A stretch of DNA of 64,000 bases, from the NCBI GenBank assembly GCA_030584185.1, contig CP129495.1, positions 889,608-953,607 of the forward strand, written 5' to 3'. Both the position numbers and the translations under genes were made by a program. The first letter of the stretch is position 1. Every line of letters begins with the position of its first letter. The notes beneath the pieces are model-generated. The model did no database searches, was not told where the DNA came from, and saw only the letters and a list, made by a program, of their open reading frames with translations. This DNA comes from Acidimicrobiia bacterium. Its GTDB lineage: Bacteria; Actinomycetota; Acidimicrobiia; Spongiisociales; UBA11373. Below are positions 20,065 to 47,129 of the stretch, piece by piece.

Positions 20065-20829
20065 TCAGCGGGGGCCCATGCGGGCGGCGGCGTCGAGTCG
20101 TACCACCTCGCCGTTGATCAGGGCGTTCTCGCAGAGATGCTGAGCCAGAGCGGCGAACTCGTCGGGACGTCCCAGACGCCGCGGGAACACGTGCACCGCG
20201 GCGAGGGACTCGCGCACCTCGTCGGGCATCCCACCGACCATTGGAGTATCCATGATCCCCGGTGCGATCGTGTTGACCCTCACCCCGATCGAGGCGAGGT
20301 CCCGGGCCAGGGGAAGGGTCAGCGATGCCACCCCGCCCTTGGATGCCGAGTAGGCGGCCTGGCCGATCTGACCCTCGGTGGCGGCGATCGAAGCGACGTT
20401 GACGACCACTCCGCGCTCGCCGTCATCGTTCGGCTCGTTGTGGGCCATGTGGCGCGCCGCATTGCGTGTGACATCGAATGTGCCGATCAGGTTGACCCGG
20501 ATCACCTTCTCGAAGAGGTCGAGGGGGAACATCTCACCGGTCCGGGTCACGACCCGGTGGGCGGGAGCGATCCCGGCGGCGTTCACGCATACGTGGATGC
20601 CGCCCATCGCCTCGGCGGCTGCGTCCACCCCACCGATCACCTCGTCGGGAACGGTGACGTCGCCCGCCACGAACCGGCCCGAGATGGCGTCGGCGACATC
20701 GGCTCCGTGCGAGCCGGGAAGGTCGAAGATGGTCACGGTGGCGCCGGCGGCGGCAAGACGGCGGGCAGTGGCCTCGCCGAGCCCGCTGCCGCCACCGGTG
20801 ACGAGGACCTTGGCACCCTTGATCTTCAT
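20065..20829 (-). CDS. SDR dehydrogenase, 3-hydroxyacyl-CoA dehydrogenase type 2-like
   Basis: The 254-residue classical short-chain dehydrogenase has TGGGSGLG (residues 11-18) for NAD binding, NAAG (83-86), catalytic Ser147, Tyr160 and Lys164 (YSASKGG). The overall sequence, including APGIMDTPM and PRRLGRPDEFA, follows the HSD17B10/3-hydroxyacyl-CoA dehydrogenase type 2 pattern, so the likely reaction is NAD-dependent oxidation of 3-hydroxyacyl-CoA in fatty-acid degradation. A clear AGGAGGT ribosome site precedes the ATG. It is the last gene of a three-gene run with the HAD protein (9 nt gap) and the unknown protein at 21797. Confidence 0.87.
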   Translation of the reverse strand: MKIKGAKVLVTGGGSGLGEATARRLAAAGATVTIFDLPGSHGADVADAISGRFVAGDVTVPDEVIGGVDAAAEAMGGIHVCVNAAGIAPAHRVVTRTGEMFPLDLFEKVIRVNLIGTFDVTRNAARHMAHNEPNDDGERGVVVNVASIAATEGQIGQAAYSASKGGVASLTLPLARDLASIGVRVNTIAPGIMDTPMVGGMPDEVRESLAAVHVFPRRLGRPDEFAALAQHLCENALINGEVVRLDAAARMGPR

Positions 20830-20838
20830 TGCTACCTC

Positions 20839-21789
20839 CTAGGCATGTCCCGGGGGACGGGGGATGTCGGCGAGAGCCCGGTGGCGGTCGGCGACGATCC
20901 CCTCTGCGATCTGTTCCAGTGAATCCATCAGCCACAGGTGGGCCGCGGCACCGGGACGGTAGTCGGCCTCGGCCATGCCCTGGATGCGGCCCTGCTCCTG
21001 CAGCTCGCGTACCCCGCGGAAGTTGTTCTTCGGTTCGGTGGTGTACACGCCAAGGGTCTTGCCGCCCCTCTCGTTGACGATCGAGAAGCAGGGCACGTCG
21101 GAGGGGCCGTCGGCGATGTAGATCATGTTCTGGATGGGCACCCTTCGTTGTTCCGGTCCCATCCGGGCGTTGACGTCGAGCCCCGGGGTCACGTTGACCC
21201 CCTTGTTGATCTCGAAGATGGCCCTGGTCTTGGCCGTGTTGTCGATCATGTAACCCACGTGGGACACCGGCTGGGACGACCGGTCGACGTCGAGGTGCTC
21301 CTGATACCGGGGAGGGGCGAGCTTCTCGATGAAGGTGTTGGCCCAGATCCCGTCGAGGTGGGGGGCGACCACCGAGCCTTCGATCATGGGGCGGATCCCG
21401 GTGGACACGACATGATGTTCCACGACGATCCCCTCCCGCTCGTATCGAGGCTCCCCCGCCACGAGGTCGCGCGTCGCCTGCATGAACTCGGGGATGCCGG
21501 GCGCCGGCTTCAGCCTCGCCCCGAGCTCACGGAGCCGGTCGTTTGTGAGCCCGGCGAAGATCCCGGCCTCGACGTAGGACAGCACGTGGAGCAGGTAGAC
21601 GGAGTCGCGCGCCACCAGGGTCCCACGGGAGGCGTAATGGTCCACCAGCCCGTCCACCTCGGCCCAGAAGGAGCCCTCGTCCACGCCGTACTCGGCGAAC
21701 AGCACCTCCTGCTGGTTGCCCGGGATGAGGGTGCGGTCGAAGTCCCACAGGAAGGCGATGACCGTCTGGGTGTACAGAGGTACCGGCAT
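20839..21789 (-). CDS. HAD-superfamily phosphatase-like protein
   Basis: The 316-residue protein starts with FLWDFDRTLIPGNQQ, the HAD motif I (DxDxT with both Asp present), has HHVVSTGIRPMIEGS as motif II region and MIYIADGPSDVPCFSIV as motif IV (GDxxxD type, here ADGPSD). The long cap between motifs I and II resembles phosphoserine phosphatase-like proteins. It probably hydrolyses a phosphomonoester in the cytosol; the substrate is unknown. The ATG at 21789 has GAGGGGG just upstream and leaves the preceding gene untouched; an alternative start at 21834 would overlap it. Operon with the SDR gene downstream. Confidence 0.78.
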   Translation of the reverse strand: MPVPLYTQTVIAFLWDFDRTLIPGNQQEVLFAEYGVDEGSFWAEVDGLVDHYASRGTLVARDSVYLLHVLSYVEAGIFAGLTNDRLRELGARLKPAPGIPEFMQATRDLVAGEPRYEREGIVVEHHVVSTGIRPMIEGSVVAPHLDGIWANTFIEKLAPPRYQEHLDVDRSSQPVSHVGYMIDNTAKTRAIFEINKGVNVTPGLDVNARMGPEQRRVPIQNMIYIADGPSDVPCFSIVNERGGKTLGVYTTEPKNNFRGVRELQEQGRIQGMAEADYRPGAAAHLWLMDSLEQIAEGIVADRHRALADIPRPPGHA

Positions 21790-21796
21790 TGCCCCC

Positions 21797-22174
21797 TCAG
21801 GGTACTTCCGGTCCTCCGAACCTAACCGCTTCATCGTCGGGCCACCACGGCTGCAGCGTCGCCCCGGTCCCCCGGAAGGCCCGATGTGCCTCACCCATGC
21901 GAAAGGCCGGGACCAGAACCACTACCCGCCATCCCGCAGCCACCGCCCCGGGGACGGTCTCGGCCAGTTCGTCCAGGTCCTGGGCCTCGTGCGGGAACCA
22001 CTCGACCAGACCGCGCCCGGCGACGATCACGGCGACACCTTCGAGGTCGGGCGCATCGGCGAAGCGTGCCAGTGGGGTCTCCACGACCGCACCGTCGTGA
22101 TAGAGGTGGAGGGACGCCGCCGTGGTGGCGGCTACCCGATGCGATGTCTGCTGCTGGACCGGGGCCAGGACCAT
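21797..22174 (-). CDS. Unknown protein, first gene of HAD-SDR operon
   Basis: A 125-residue soluble protein with alternating strands and helices (VAVIVAGRGLVEWFPHEAQDLDELAETVPGAVAAGWRVVVLVP), suggestive of a small alpha/beta fold. I do not recognise the family. The ATG at 22174 is preceded by GGAGGCGAC as ribosome site. The stop is 7 nt from the HAD gene start. Upstream, in the space shared with the divergent aconitase X gene, lies TACATCTTTGTA, an inverted repeat that could be an operator. Confidence 0.55.
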   Translation of the reverse strand: MVLAPVQQQTSHRVAATTAASLHLYHDGAVVETPLARFADAPDLEGVAVIVAGRGLVEWFPHEAQDLDELAETVPGAVAAGWRVVVLVPAFRMGEAHRAFRGTGATLQPWWPDDEAVRFGGPEVP

Positions 22175-22186
22175 GTCGCCTCCGTG

Positions 22187-22206
22187 ACCGGATTACAAAG
22201 ATGTAG
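22187..22206. promoter_or_regulatory. Candidate operator between divergent genes
   Basis: This AT-richer patch in a GC-rich region contains TACAAAGATGTA (TACA-N4-TGTA) in the space between the minus-strand unknown gene (start 22174) and the plus-strand aconitase X gene (start 22267). It could bind a dimeric regulator or simply hold the minus-strand promoter. Confidence 0.3.
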
Positions 22207-22266
22207 TTTACCCGGAGCCGGCGACAGAATGTGGCGGGAGGGGATGGAGCGAGGCAGACTGCCGCC

Positions 22267-23526
22267 ATGACCATCGCCCTCACCGACGACGACCGCGCTC
22301 TCCTCGCCGGCGAGTCGGGGGAGGCGGCCGCCCTGGCGATGCGGATCCTGGTGGAGATGGCAGGGATCTCCAACGCCCGCAGGTTCATCGCCGTGACCTC
22401 GGCCCACATCGATTCCTGCCTGTACCACGGTGACGCCGGGCTCGACTTCGCCGAGCGCCTCGCCGGGTGGGGGGCACGGGTAGCCGTATCGACCACGCTC
22501 AACGTCTCCTCACTCGATCTGCTCCATCCCGATCTCGTGGATGCAGACGACACCCTGCGCACCAAGGCCCGCCGCCTGATGGCCGCCTACGTCTCCATGG
22601 GTGGGCTCCCCACGTGGACCTGCGCCCCCTACCAGGCGCTGCAGCGACCCTCTCTCGGGGAGCACGTGGCCTGGGCCGAGTCCAACGCCATCGTCTTCGC
22701 CAACTCGGTGCTCGGAGCCCGTACCGACCGATACGGCGACTTCACCGACATCTGCGGCGCCATCGCCGGCCGCGTACCGGAAGCCGGCCTGCATCTCGAC
22801 TCCGGGCGTCGGGCGCGCTCGGTGTTCCGCCTCGAAGGAGTGCCCGCCTCGATTCTCGAGTCGGAGGTGATCTACCCGGTGTTGGGCCACCTGGTGGGCC
22901 GGGCCACCGGAACCCTGGTCCCGGCAATCGTCGGGCTGTCTCCGGATGCACCCGAGGACGGGCTGAAGGCCCTCGGGGCGGCGGCGGCGTCGTCGGGTGG
23001 GGTGGCCATGTTCCACGCCGTGGGACGAACCCCCGAGGCGCCCACTCTCGAAGATGCTCTTGGGGGTGCGGCGCCGTTGCTGGAGGTGTCCGTGGACCCG
23101 GCGGCACTGCGCCGGGCACGCGCCGAACTCACCACCGATGCCACAGGGCGCCTGGGAGCGGTGAGCGTCGGCACCCCGCATTTCTCGATCGAGGAGTTCC
23201 GAAAGCTCGCCGCCCTGTTCTCGGGCCGGCGGGTGGCGCCGGGCGTCGAGTTCTACGTCGGCACCTCCCGCCAGGTGCTCGCCGAGGCTGCGGCCGACGG
23301 GTTGATCGACCCCCTGCGGGCAGCGGGGGTGCAGGTGGTGACCGACACCTGCACCTACATCACGCCGGTGATCCGGGACACCGAGGGCGTGGTGATGACC
23401 AACTCGGGGAAGTGGGCGTACTACGCCCCCGGCAACCTGGGCCTGGACGTGGCTTTCGGCTCGCTCGAGGACTGCGTCGAGTCGGCGGTGCAGGGAAGGA
23501 TCGTGATCGGGGGATGGGATGGCTGA
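22267..23526 (+). CDS. Aconitase X catalytic (large) subunit
   Basis: The 419-residue protein matches the AcnX large-subunit family (formerly DUF521): N-terminal LTDDDRALLAGESGEAAALAMRIL, VTSAHIDSCLYHGDAGLDFAERL, TTLNVSSLDLL, GGLPTWTCAPYQ, ESNAIVFANSVLGARTDRYGDF and CTYITPV...GVVMTNSGKWAYYAPGN near the end. Family members are Fe-S dehydratases: bacterial ones include cis-3-hydroxy-L-proline dehydratase, archaeal ones phosphomevalonate dehydratase. Neither hydroxyproline nor mevalonate genes are nearby, so the substrate is open. It overlaps the small subunit by 8 nt. Start at 22267: CAGACT lies 6 nt upstream, like the leaderless genes. Confidence 0.88.
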   Translation: MTIALTDDDRALLAGESGEAAALAMRILVEMAGISNARRFIAVTSAHIDSCLYHGDAGLDFAERLAGWGARVAVSTTLNVSSLDLLHPDLVDADDTLRTKARRLMAAYVSMGGLPTWTCAPYQALQRPSLGEHVAWAESNAIVFANSVLGARTDRYGDFTDICGAIAGRVPEAGLHLDSGRRARSVFRLEGVPASILESEVIYPVLGHLVGRATGTLVPAIVGLSPDAPEDGLKALGAAAASSGGVAMFHAVGRTPEAPTLEDALGGAAPLLEVSVDPAALRRARAELTTDATGRLGAVSVGTPHFSIEEFRKLAALFSGRRVAPGVEFYVGTSRQVLAEAAADGLIDPLRAAGVQVVTDTCTYITPVIRDTEGVVMTNSGKWAYYAPGNLGLDVAFGSLEDCVESAVQGRIVIGGWDG

Positions 23527-23929
23527 TCGGATGCTGGTGGCCGGTGAGGCGGCCGGGGACGCACTGGTCCTGGACGAGCCGCTCTCGATGTGGGGCGGCC
23601 TCGACCCGAAGACCGGCGAGATCATCGACCGCAGGCACCCGCAGTCGGGTTCGGTGGTCACCGGAAGGGTGCTGGTGATGCCGGTCGGCCGCGGCTCCTC
23701 GTCGGCCTCGAGCGTGCTCGCCGAGGCGATCCGCCTGGGCACCGCCCCGGCGGCGATCGTGCTCGCCGAGCCCGACGGGATCATCGCCGTAGGGGCGATC
23801 GTGGCTCGCGAGATGTACGGGCGGGCGATGCCGGTGGTCGTCACCGACGAGGAGCGCTACCGGGCGATCGGCGACGGGCAGCGAGTGGAGATCGGTCCAC
23901 AGGGGTTGCTCGGGACGGCGATGGCCTAG
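23519..23929 (+). CDS. Aconitase X swivel (small) subunit
   Basis: The 136-residue protein is the DUF126-type partner of AcnX: EAAGDALVLDEPLSMWGGLDPKTGEIIDRRHPQSG, then GRGSSSASSVLAEAIRLGTAPAAIVLAEPDGIIAVGAIVA. The GRGSSS(A/G)S loop and the 'swivel' beta domain contribute to the active site of the heterodimeric enzyme (type II AcnX; some bacteria have both parts in one chain). The ATG at 23519 lies within the last codons of the large subunit gene (ATGGCTGA overlap), a strong sign of coupled translation and one complex. Its TAG stop forms the first bases of the next gene's -10 hexamer. Confidence 0.9.
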   Translation: MADRMLVAGEAAGDALVLDEPLSMWGGLDPKTGEIIDRRHPQSGSVVTGRVLVMPVGRGSSSASSVLAEAIRLGTAPAAIVLAEPDGIIAVGAIVAREMYGRAMPVVVTDEERYRAIGDGQRVEIGPQGLLGTAMA

Positions 23930-23942: not shown

Positions 23943-24380
23943 ATGCCCGCCTTCGACCTGAGACCGATCGATGCCGCCGAGGCACTCGGGCTCCGACGGG
24001 CCCTGCTTCCCGGATCGGAGGCACATCCGGGTGACGAACACGAAGACAGGCGCCACGTAGGCGTGTTCAAGGGTGAGCAGCTCGTCGGCGTCGGAACGGC
24101 CCACCCGCAGCCGATGCCAGGAGGCCTACATGCTGGTGCCTGGCGGATACGGGGCCTGGCCGTCGAGCACGGTCACCGCGGTCGGGGACTGGGAACGCTT
24201 CTCCTTCAAGACCTCTTCGACCACGCCACCTCGCTCGGTGGCACCCTTGCCTGGGCGCTGGTGCCGCCGGAGGCGGCGGGATTCTTCATCCGGCACCGTT
24301 TCGATGGCTCGGCTATCGACGATCGGATGCGTCTGATGTCGGTCGCCATCCGCCCGACCACCCGCTCCTGGGCGATCTGA
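23943..24380 (+). CDS. GNAT-family N-acetyltransferase
   Basis: The 145-residue protein has the GNAT core: GVFKGEQLVGVGTAHP (strands 2-3), IRGLAVEHGHRGRGLGTLLLQDLFDHA (motif A with the R/Q-x-x-G-x-G/A acetyl-CoA pyrophosphate loop, here RGRGLG) and a C-terminal AGFFIRHRFD, typical of the last helix-strand unit. It transfers an acetyl group from acetyl-CoA to an unknown amine, in the cytosol. Length is standard. It follows the aconitase X genes by 13 nt on the same strand and might be co-transcribed with them. Confidence 0.85.
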   Translation: MPAFDLRPIDAAEALGLRRALLPGSEAHPGDEHEDRRHVGVFKGEQLVGVGTAHPQPMPGGLHAGAWRIRGLAVEHGHRGRGLGTLLLQDLFDHATSLGGTLAWALVPPEAAGFFIRHRFDGSAIDDRMRLMSVAIRPTTRSWAI

Positions 24381-45369: not shown

Positions 45370-46080
45370 GTGCCCCACCCCTCGGGAAGACCCTGGATCG
45401 TCGCTCACCGCGGCGCCTCACTGGTCCGAAGGGAGAACACCGTCGAGGCGTTCCTCGAAGCCGCCCGTCTCGGTGCCGACGCCGTGGAGATGGATGTCCG
45501 CCGCACCGCCGACGGCGGACTGGTTGTGCATCACGACCACACCATCCCGGGATGTGATCGGCCGATCGTGGCCATGACCCGGTCCGAGGTGGCGATCATG
45601 GCTCCCCACGTCCCGGACCTGATCGATGCCCTCGCCGCCTGCGAAGGGATGTGGGTGGATCTCGAGATCAAGAACTCGCCCTTCGAACCGGACCACGATC
45701 CCGACGACCTCGTACTGGCCGGCGTGCTGCCTCTCGCCGACGGCGGAGTCCTGATCACTTCGTTCAACCCGGTCACGGTCGAGCGAGCAGCCGCCGCCGG
45801 CGGGTGTACCGGCTGGCTGCTCCCGCGTGGAGTCGACCCGCTCGATGCCCTGACACGGTGGCCGGGGCACGAGTTCGTCCTGCCCTCCGTGGCGGCGATG
45901 GGTGGCGTCACCGCCTCCGCAGTGGTCGAGTCGGCGACGGCGGCCGGGGTCGAGGTCGGGGTATGGACGGTCGACGACCCCGATGAGATTCGCCGCCTGG
46001 CGGCGTGCGGCGTAGGGATGATCTGCACCAACGCACCGGATGTGGCCCGCTCAGCCCTCGACGACCACCGCTACCGCTGA
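45370..46080 (+). CDS. Glycerophosphodiester phosphodiesterase (GDPD)
   Basis: The 236-residue TIM-barrel enzyme has the GDPD motifs: VAHRGASLVRRENTVEAF (His13, Arg14, Glu22), AVEMDVRRTADGGLVVHHDHTI (Glu40 and Asp42 as metal ligands, His54/55 as acid/base). It cleaves glycerophosphodiesters to glycerol-3-phosphate and an alcohol. There is no signal peptide, so it is cytosolic. C-terminal VWTVDDPDEIRRLAACGVGMICTNAPD is the typical last strand-helix unit. GTG at 45370 after TAGCCT. Its 3' end overlaps the convergent ispF by 30 nt. Confidence 0.92.
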   Translation: MPHPSGRPWIVAHRGASLVRRENTVEAFLEAARLGADAVEMDVRRTADGGLVVHHDHTIPGCDRPIVAMTRSEVAIMAPHVPDLIDALAACEGMWVDLEIKNSPFEPDHDPDDLVLAGVLPLADGGVLITSFNPVTVERAAAAGGCTGWLLPRGVDPLDALTRWPGHEFVLPSVAAMGGVTASAVVESATAAGVEVGVWTVDDPDEIRRLAACGVGMICTNAPDVARSALDDHRYR

Positions 46081-46524
46081 GGCGGCGATCCCTTCGTCGG
46101 CACCCAGGAACCCCATGCCGTCGGTTGTGGTCGCCTTCACCGAGACGACGTCCCGTGCCAGACCGAGTGCGGCTGCCAGCGAATCCCGGATCTCCTGGCG
46201 ATGTGGCGCCACCCGTACCGTCTCGGCGACCACCGTCACGTCCACCGAGGAGGGGGCGAACCCGGCCGCTTCGAGGCGACCGACGGTGTCGGCGAGCAGG
46301 GCCATGCTGTCGGCGCCTTCCCAGGCAGGATCGTTCGACGGGTAGTGGGTACCGAGATCCCCCAGGGCGGCGGCACCGAGCAAGGCGTCGATGACGGCGT
46401 GCGCTGCCACGTCGCCGTCGGAGGTGGCCTCCACACCGCGGGTTGCGTCGACGACCACCCCGGCGAGAAGCACCTTCCCCGAAGGAGAGAAGCGGTGGGC
46501 GTCGAAGCCCCAGCCAACCCTCAC
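46051..46524 (-). CDS. ispF: 2-C-methyl-D-erythritol 2,4-cyclodiphosphate synthase IspF
   Basis: The 157-residue protein has the IspF pattern: GWGFDAHRF (metal ligands Asp and His), SDGDVAAHAVIDALLGAAALGDLGTHYPSNDP (third metal ligand His in the AHA segment) and TTTDGMGFLGADEGIAASAVA. It forms the cyclodiphosphate in the MEP isoprenoid pathway. Length is normal for this homotrimeric enzyme. GTG at 46524 overlaps the ispD stop by 4 nt (GTGA), a common arrangement for these two steps. Confidence 0.96.
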   Translation of the reverse strand: MRVGWGFDAHRFSPSGKVLLAGVVVDATRGVEATSDGDVAAHAVIDALLGAAALGDLGTHYPSNDPAWEGADSMALLADTVGRLEAAGFAPSSVDVTVVAETVRVAPHRQEIRDSLAAALGLARDVVSVKATTTDGMGFLGADEGIAASAVAVVVEG

Positions 46525-47129
46525 GGCAGCATCCTCGTCAGCAGCTCGAGATCGCCGGGCCGGGTGACCTTCAGGTTGGCGGGATCCCCGGCGACCACGG
46601 CGACCCGCCCTCCCCACAGTTCCACCAGGTAGGCGTCGTCGGGGGCATCCCCCGGATGGGCCGCATGTGCCGCTCGCAGCGACTCGATCACGAACCCCTG
46701 AGGGGTCTGCACCGTCGCCAGGCCGTCGCGCTCGACGGTGCCCTCCACGACGCCATCCCCGACGCGTTTGACCGTGTCGGTCACATCGAGGGCGGGCACG
46801 ACGCCGTCGACGTCGCCGACCCCGAGCCGGGCGATGACGGAGGTGACGAGTTCGGACCCGGCCAGCGGACGCGCTGCGTCGTGAATCACCACATGGGTGG
46901 CGTCTGGGGGAAGCGCGCTCAGGCCGGCCGCCACCGAATCGCGCCGCCGATCACCGCCGGGGATCCCACCAGGAATGGGTCCCACGACGATCACCTCGTC
47001 GACGCCGCCGGCTTGCAGGGCATCGAGCGCCCACACCCAGAGCGGGCGGCCGCCGAGAGTGGCCTGGACCTTGGGCCCGCCGAAACGCTCCCCGCGCCCG
47101 GCGGCCAGCAGGATTCCGTGGACGATCAC
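46521..47129 (-). CDS. ispD: 2-C-methyl-D-erythritol 4-phosphate cytidylyltransferase IspD
   Basis: The 202-residue nucleotidyltransferase has LLAAGRGERFGGPKVQATLGG (CTP-binding loop), RRDSVAAGL, VVIHDAARPL, TVQTPQGFV and a C-terminal NLKVTRPGDLEL, all IspD hallmarks. It activates MEP with CTP in the MEP isoprenoid pathway. Slightly shorter than the E. coli enzyme (236). GTG at 47129 overlaps the stop of the PIN/TRAM gene by 4 nt. The genes carD, PIN/TRAM, ispD and ispF form one operon, as in other actinobacteria. Confidence 0.95.
   Translation of the reverse strand: MIVHGILLAAGRGERFGGPKVQATLGGRPLWVWALDALQAGGVDEVIVVGPIPGGIPGGDRRRDSVAAGLSALPPDATHVVIHDAARPLAGSELVTSVIARLGVGDVDGVVPALDVTDTVKRVGDGVVEGTVERDGLATVQTPQGFVIESLRAAHAAHPGDAPDDAYLVELWGGRVAVVAGDPANLKVTRPGDLELLTRMLP

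Follow-up and report, generated by a model that had tools for sequence, protein, structure and literature searches.

Genes and features at the AcnX locus

The window analysed here is the whole 64,000-nucleotide stretch of an Acidimicrobiia bacterium genome (contig CP129495.1, positions 889,608 to 953,607), and its two AcnX genes lie on the plus strand between a divergent operon and an acetyltransferase gene. The features of the locus are as follows.

20065–20829, minus strand: short-chain dehydrogenase (SDR; PF00106)
20839–21789, minus strand: HAD hydrolase (PF12710)
21797–22174, minus strand: HYP, a 125-aa protein outside the enzyme, first gene of the divergent operon
22193–22210, between HYP and AcnX: conserved dyad TTACA-N4-TGTAGTTTA with a variable N4
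22267–23526, plus strand: AcnX type IIa large subunit, aconitase domains 1–3, 419 aa (PF04412, 448.6 bits; NF051439, 418.1 bits)
23519–23929, plus strand: AcnX type IIa small subunit, swivel domain 4, 136 aa (PF01989, 93.6 bits; NF051439, 138.8 bits)
23943–24380, plus strand: GNAT acetyltransferase (PF00583, 40.3 bits), in an AcnX-independent block

On sequence grounds, the membership of this pair in the AcnX family is settled. Both chains pass the Pfam gathering scores (31.5 bits for PF04412 and 27 bits for PF01989), and the frames overlap by 8 nt, the large subunit running from the ATG at 22267 to the stop at 23526 and the small one from the ATG at 23519 to the stop at 23929; the sequence-only reading of this DNA had described just such a two-subunit enzyme. 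The pair is the sole AcnX match in the genome, a single contig of 2,211,559 bases that is 96.5% complete, and in all 80 related loci, a few of them clipped by a contig end, the small-subunit match lies downstream of the large-subunit match. No pathway gene adjoins the pair in the window, as that reading had also observed, and the GNAT gene it placed after the pair is real.

The divergent genes had been taken for a HAD-SDR operon with a possible operator shared with AcnX. A divergent HAD and SDR are indeed there, but the first gene is HYP, not HAD; it has no Pfam or NCBIfam match and is 51–64% identical in the AcnX-bearing relatives inspected and 34–40% in the AcnX-less G077, G016 and G057. The HAD protein probably starts at the ATG at 21789 rather than at 21894, since in AcnX-bearing relatives the similarity sets in only at residues 29–36 of the longer frame. 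Six AcnX-bearing relatives were inspected: HAD and SDR adjoin AcnX in every one, and GNAT does so in five, the exception being G023. Our sample of the order comprised 119 genomes; the family accounts for 14 genomes, eight with AcnX and six without, and HAD was found in 12 of the 14, AcnX or not. The SDR gene is retained in the AcnX-less loci L207–L209 and was not found in L210–L211. A related locus titled Acidobacteria (L003) has the same synteny as contig C226 of G045, a member of the window's family, and its title is probably a misnomer.

The dyad is exact in six of the eight AcnX-bearing family genomes (G000, which holds the window, G023, G039, G045, G052 and G061); G008 has a near-copy, and G073 was outside the comparison of AcnX loci. 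Its chance expectation is 0.01 per window at up to two mismatches. Allowing up to one mismatch, the genome of the window contains a single copy, so the dyad does not tie AcnX to the reductase and dehydratase genes described below. The motif is real, and synteny tells us where it belongs. The AcnX pair of G008 is flipped, and the near-copy remains next to HYP. Without AcnX, G016 and G057 have HYP, the exact dyad, HAD, SDR and GNAT, with a geneless gap of about 105–115 nt between dyad and GNAT; the AcnX-less G077 has a dyad with an altered tail next to HYP, and its GNAT lies 3 kb off. HAD adjoins GNAT in G031 and G065, where HYP, dyad and AcnX were not found. Given this synteny, the dyad belongs to the divergent HYP-HAD-SDR operon and not to AcnX, and the two AcnX genes are an optional insertion into a block that is otherwise independent of them. 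The conserved dyad of the sequence-only reading therefore stands, but the shared operator controlling AcnX does not: the dyad tracks HYP-HAD-SDR through the flipped pair of G008 and through three AcnX-less relatives. The neighbours are a poor guide to function, given that two AcnX-less relatives retain the dyad and GNAT with nothing encoded between the two, and we rejected any function guessed from HAD, SDR and GNAT, which AcnX-less relatives keep.

Profiles, pocket residues and phylogeny of the AcnX pair

According to two papers (PMC8184944, PMC5144071), AcnX types I and IIa are cis-3-hydroxy-L-proline (C3LHyp) dehydratases. Watanabe et al. (PMC8184944) count the Micromonospora viridifaciens enzyme among the type IIa dehydratases, give this type potentially only two cluster cysteines, and describe types IIc–IIf as uncharacterised. 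The C3LHyp dehydratase profile NF051439 scored the large chain at 418.1 and the small one at 138.8 bits, below its cut-off of 700 bits, which belongs to a profile covering the fused protein. Among solved structures, the large subunit matched 7cnp (AtAcnX, the type I C3LHyp dehydratase of Agrobacterium) at 290 bits and 7cnr (TkAcnX, the type IIb phosphomevalonate dehydratase of Thermococcus) at 201 bits; the small subunit gave 99 and 63 bits, respectively. Taken together, the profile and structure matches favour a C3LHyp dehydratase over a phosphomevalonate dehydratase.

The residues of the pocket and the cluster were compared as assigned by Watanabe et al. (PMC8184944), in AtAcnX numbering. 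The residue alignment places the window with type I at Trp, Ser, Asp, Asn, Cys, Glu-Ser-Asn, Cys, Lys and Tyr; the changes are Cys71 to Ser, Thr72 to Ser, Ile206 to Leu and Ser449 to Thr, and the third cluster cysteine is absent. The same source states that the C3LHyp-binding residues W35, S70, T72, D203, I206, E292, S293, N294, K530 and Y534 are conserved in type IIa (PMC8184944). Strictly, eight of these ten are found in the window, the T72S and I206L changes being Micromonospora-like. The other marks of type IIa are also found: separate, adjoining genes for the two subunits (22267–23526 and 23519–23929), only two cluster cysteines, equivalent to C273 and C508 (a gap ambiguity places the second under C510 in another alignment), and a retained Glu292. 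By analogy with Ser70 of AtAcnX, Ser60 of the small subunit is the predicted general base. Four Micromonospora loci have exactly the same residues at the compared positions, as do Arthrobacter, Achromobacter, Chthonobacter and Caballeronia; 67 of 81 loci share the window's whole set, and the remaining 14 differ at one to three positions.

Type IIb offers a different picture. Leu27, Val64, Ala47, Ser50 and the cluster Cys283 of TkAcnX are Trp, Ser, Asp, Leu and Thr in the window, and the three cluster cysteines, the MVA5P-binding residues and the mevalonate pathway of that type (judged by HMG-CoA reductase) were not found. Four divergent AcnX (L190–L193) also lack several of the C3LHyp-type residues that the window has. 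On plasmids of Pseudorhizobium banfieldiae (L190:5004-6640) and Cupriavidus campinensis (L193:5001-6122), Asp-Thr-Gly replaces Glu-Ser-Asn; in the former, AcnX is encoded by two paired genes with malate synthase G and FAD-linked oxidase genes after them, and it could be a hydroxy-acid dehydratase of glyoxylate metabolism. A Vibrio europaeus plasmid (L192:5001-6710) carries a two-subunit AcnX that is very divergent, most of its landmark residues being altered.

A phylogeny of AcnX, one of the checks proposed with the sequence-only reading, was built from 94 rows. The window groups with its family relatives (support 100/98), within a clade of type I and two-subunit, Micromonospora-like bacterial AcnX (support 100/99). 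The Thermococcus type IIb enzyme and the four divergent plasmid AcnX fall outside this clade; their branches are long, and the order among them is uncertain. Because the rows hold no characterised type IIa sequence, the name IIa was assigned to the window's AcnX by its closeness to Micromonospora.

Likely partner genes in the genome and across the order

A second proposed check, a genome search, turned up partner-type genes far from AcnX. Two are given here in genome coordinates.

1078409–1079281: OCD/mu-crystallin reductase, a delta1-pyrroline-2-carboxylate (P2C) reductase candidate, one copy, above the PF02423 cut-off
2209265–2210227: proline-racemase-like gene of the Cys/Thr type, one copy, with MCGH and DRSPTGSG motifs

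The best curated name for the OCD protein is pyrroline-2-carboxylate/piperideine-2-carboxylate reductase, at an NF004793 score of 197.2 bits, below the cut-off of 322. The family is above cut-off in six of 14 control genomes, so an OCD gene by itself is weak evidence. The racemase-like protein matches the PDB entry 7qpo at 380 bits and falls short of the NCBIfam trans-3 dehydratase cut-off (329 against 540 bits). Its two motifs nevertheless place it in the Cys-Thr type of the proline-racemase family, which PMC4364671 equates with trans-3-hydroxy-L-proline (T3LHyp) dehydratase. No other member of the family was found in the genome, and hence no Cys-Cys 4-hydroxyproline epimerase belonging to it. 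One proline dehydrogenase (Pro_dh) is present, and the four genes are far apart in the 2.2-Mb genome. A reductase of the Ldh_2 type was rejected as partner, none being found in the genome.

The 'orphan' status suggested by the sequence-only reading does not stand up. That reading had named beforehand what would refute it, namely tight grouping with characterised hydroxyproline dehydratases and partner genes elsewhere in the genome, and this was found: the clade with type I enzymes, and an OCD-type reductase gene, a Cys/Thr racemase-like dehydratase gene and a proline dehydrogenase gene. With such partners elsewhere in the same genome, the puzzle largely dissolves. That reading had also argued against a mevalonate role from IspD and IspF in the window, and like genes do lie at 46521–47129 and 46051–46524, both detected by motif expression only. 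HMG-CoA reductase, the one mevalonate gene searched for, was not found in the genome, which carries IspG of the MEP pathway outside the window, so the mevalonate role is very unlikely.

Orthologues of the unlinked genes stand beside AcnX in other genomes. In two loci titled Acidimicrobiia and Acidimicrobiales (L020 and L048), AcnX-L, AcnX-S and OCD follow in a row on the same strand; the OCD begins about 50 nt past the AcnX-S match and is 60–61% identical to that of the window's genome. In a third, from the same order (L177, genome G098), the gene after AcnX-L and AcnX-S encodes a Cys/Thr dehydratase with 57% identity to that of the window's genome. More broadly, a tblastn search of the flanks (E ≤ 1e-6) found partner-type genes at 17 of 80 related loci, many of them on short contigs, with raw counts of 14 for OCD, six for racemase-like and three for both; these flank OCD genes are mostly just 33–46% identical to the window genome's. 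The unlinked layout seems common, and in each of the seven other AcnX-bearing family genomes the three genes are on three different contigs.

The co-occurrence of these genes was also counted. Within the family, both partners are present in all eight AcnX-bearing genomes vs. one of the six without AcnX, the exception (G069) being 76% complete with an OCD fragment. An unrooted HAD tree groups the AcnX-less members in a single clade (support 0.98), and one event of gain or loss may therefore account for the family pattern. AcnX is above cut-off in 51 of the 119 genomes sampled from the order; 55 have a Pro_racemase-like gene (after removal of one fragment and four below-cut-off genomes), and 45 have an OCD at least 54% identical to the window genome's, against 90 with any OCD match. 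Pro_racemase is found in 37 of 51 AcnX genomes vs. 18 of 68 without AcnX. Outside the family the figures are 29/43 and 17/62 (Fisher 6e-5), whereas the OCD at ≥54% does not track AcnX (16/43 vs. 20/62, p 0.68), both P values being uncorrected for relatedness. By the thresholds used, nine of the 51 have neither partner. Left out of these counts as below cut-off were the AcnX of G106 and the Pro_racemase of G001, G032, G053 and G058; the Pro_racemase of G089 was left out as a short fragment, and genomes with a best OCD match of 43% identity or less were left out of the OCD count. Fragments retained were the AcnX of G073 and the OCD of G069, G087, G095 and G107.

Some genomes of the order have more than one AcnX. 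A second copy of 373–378 bits stands beside one of 420–426 in G043, G064, G068 and G072, all of one family, and G074, of another family, has a second copy of 271 bits. Two near-identical loci on different contigs of an Acidimicrobiaceae NAT100 MAG (L052 and L053) are a recent duplicate or an assembly artefact.

Proposed function and comparison with known systems

The window's AcnX is most likely an ordinary two-part bacterial enzyme that breaks down cis-3-hydroxyproline. The observed family membership, pocket residues, partner presence, adjacency in other genomes and co-occurrence are best explained as a whole by a heterodimeric type IIa AcnX dehydrating C3LHyp, with unlinked partners completing the route from P2C to proline; we give this reading a probability of roughly 0.88. 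As predicted from sequence, the activities, substrate, flux and cluster chemistry would be these. By analogy with AtAcnX, Ser60 of the small subunit would take the C2 proton of cis-3-hydroxy-L-proline, and the Fe-S cluster, held by the two conserved cysteines of the large subunit and perhaps the conserved Glu, would take the C3 hydroxyl, with the conserved Lys and Tyr assisting dehydration. The unlinked OCD-family reductase would turn the product, P2C, into L-proline, which proline dehydrogenase would then oxidise. The unlinked Cys/Thr racemase-like protein may feed trans-3-hydroxy-L-proline into the same P2C pool.

Other substrates have to be weighed against this. The Ser72/Leu206 pocket, in place of Thr/Ile, and the bifunctional pyrroline/piperideine name of the OCD would suit a type IIa AcnX acting on some other 3-hydroxylated cyclic amino acid, for example 3-hydroxypipecolate, giving delta1-piperideine-2-carboxylate for the same reductase. 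We consider this quite improbable: the pocket changes are conservative and common to the Micromonospora loci, the Micromonospora type IIa enzyme is reported as a C3LHyp dehydratase (PMC8184944), and the genome also has a trans-3-hydroxyproline-type dehydratase. Seen across the family, AcnX IIa, the Cys/Thr dehydratase and the OCD could form a co-inherited, unlinked module for 3-hydroxy cyclic imino acids, with no racemase-family 4-hydroxyproline epimerase in the window's genome and with a Ser72/Leu206 clade of widened range, taking in 3-hydroxypipecolate, for example; this wider reading is unlikely.

The role of type IIb, phosphomevalonate dehydration in a modified mevalonate pathway, shares with the window the two-subunit architecture, the family and the weaker 7cnr match, yet its chances are close to nil. 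We rejected it on the absence of HMG-CoA reductase (the sole mevalonate gene searched), the presence of IspG and the pocket residues, the substrate residues and cluster Cys283 of TkAcnX all being replaced; type IIb also lies outside the window's clade. An AcnX of types IIc–IIf with a substrate tied to its neighbours would fit HAD and SDR adjoining it in 6/6 relatives inspected and GNAT in 5/6, but is very improbable when HAD occurs in 12/14 family genomes irrespective of AcnX, when HYP-HAD-SDR, the dyad and GNAT persist in the AcnX-less G016 and G057, and when the window has C3LHyp-type residues, several of which the divergent L190–L193 lack.

The dehydration of C3LHyp remains our preferred reading. 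A false orphan is removed, the HAD, SDR, GNAT and dyad beside it being common to AcnX-less relatives, and likely partners that are unlinked have been recovered via orthologues adjoining AcnX in other genomes. The reading also hints at a route for 3-hydroxyproline that does without a racemase-family 4-hydroxyproline epimerase, in a lineage of small genomes; the closest named records to this lineage are from uncultured Acidimicrobiia and Actinobacteria. This amounts to a modest ecological prediction.

Among known systems, the closest is type IIa of the Micromonospora kind, with the same separate L and S subunits, two cluster cysteines plus a conserved Glu, the same residues and the same clade. 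The window's large subunit is 54–56% identical to Micromonospora loci of species other than the characterised one. A further difference is that the window's AcnX genes are unlinked from the reductase and the trans-3 dehydratase; the type IIa genes of Azospirillum brasilense reportedly likewise lie apart from the hydroxyproline cluster. With type I AtAcnX (7cnp) the window shares the catalytic Ser, Asp, Asn, Glu-Ser-Asn, Lys, Tyr and Trp35, but the type I enzyme is a single chain with three cluster cysteines, and AtAcnX, unlike the window, has Cys71, Thr72, Ile206 and Ser449. Type IIb TkAcnX (7cnr) has the two subunits and the family in common with the window, and differs from it in the substrate residues and the third cysteine.
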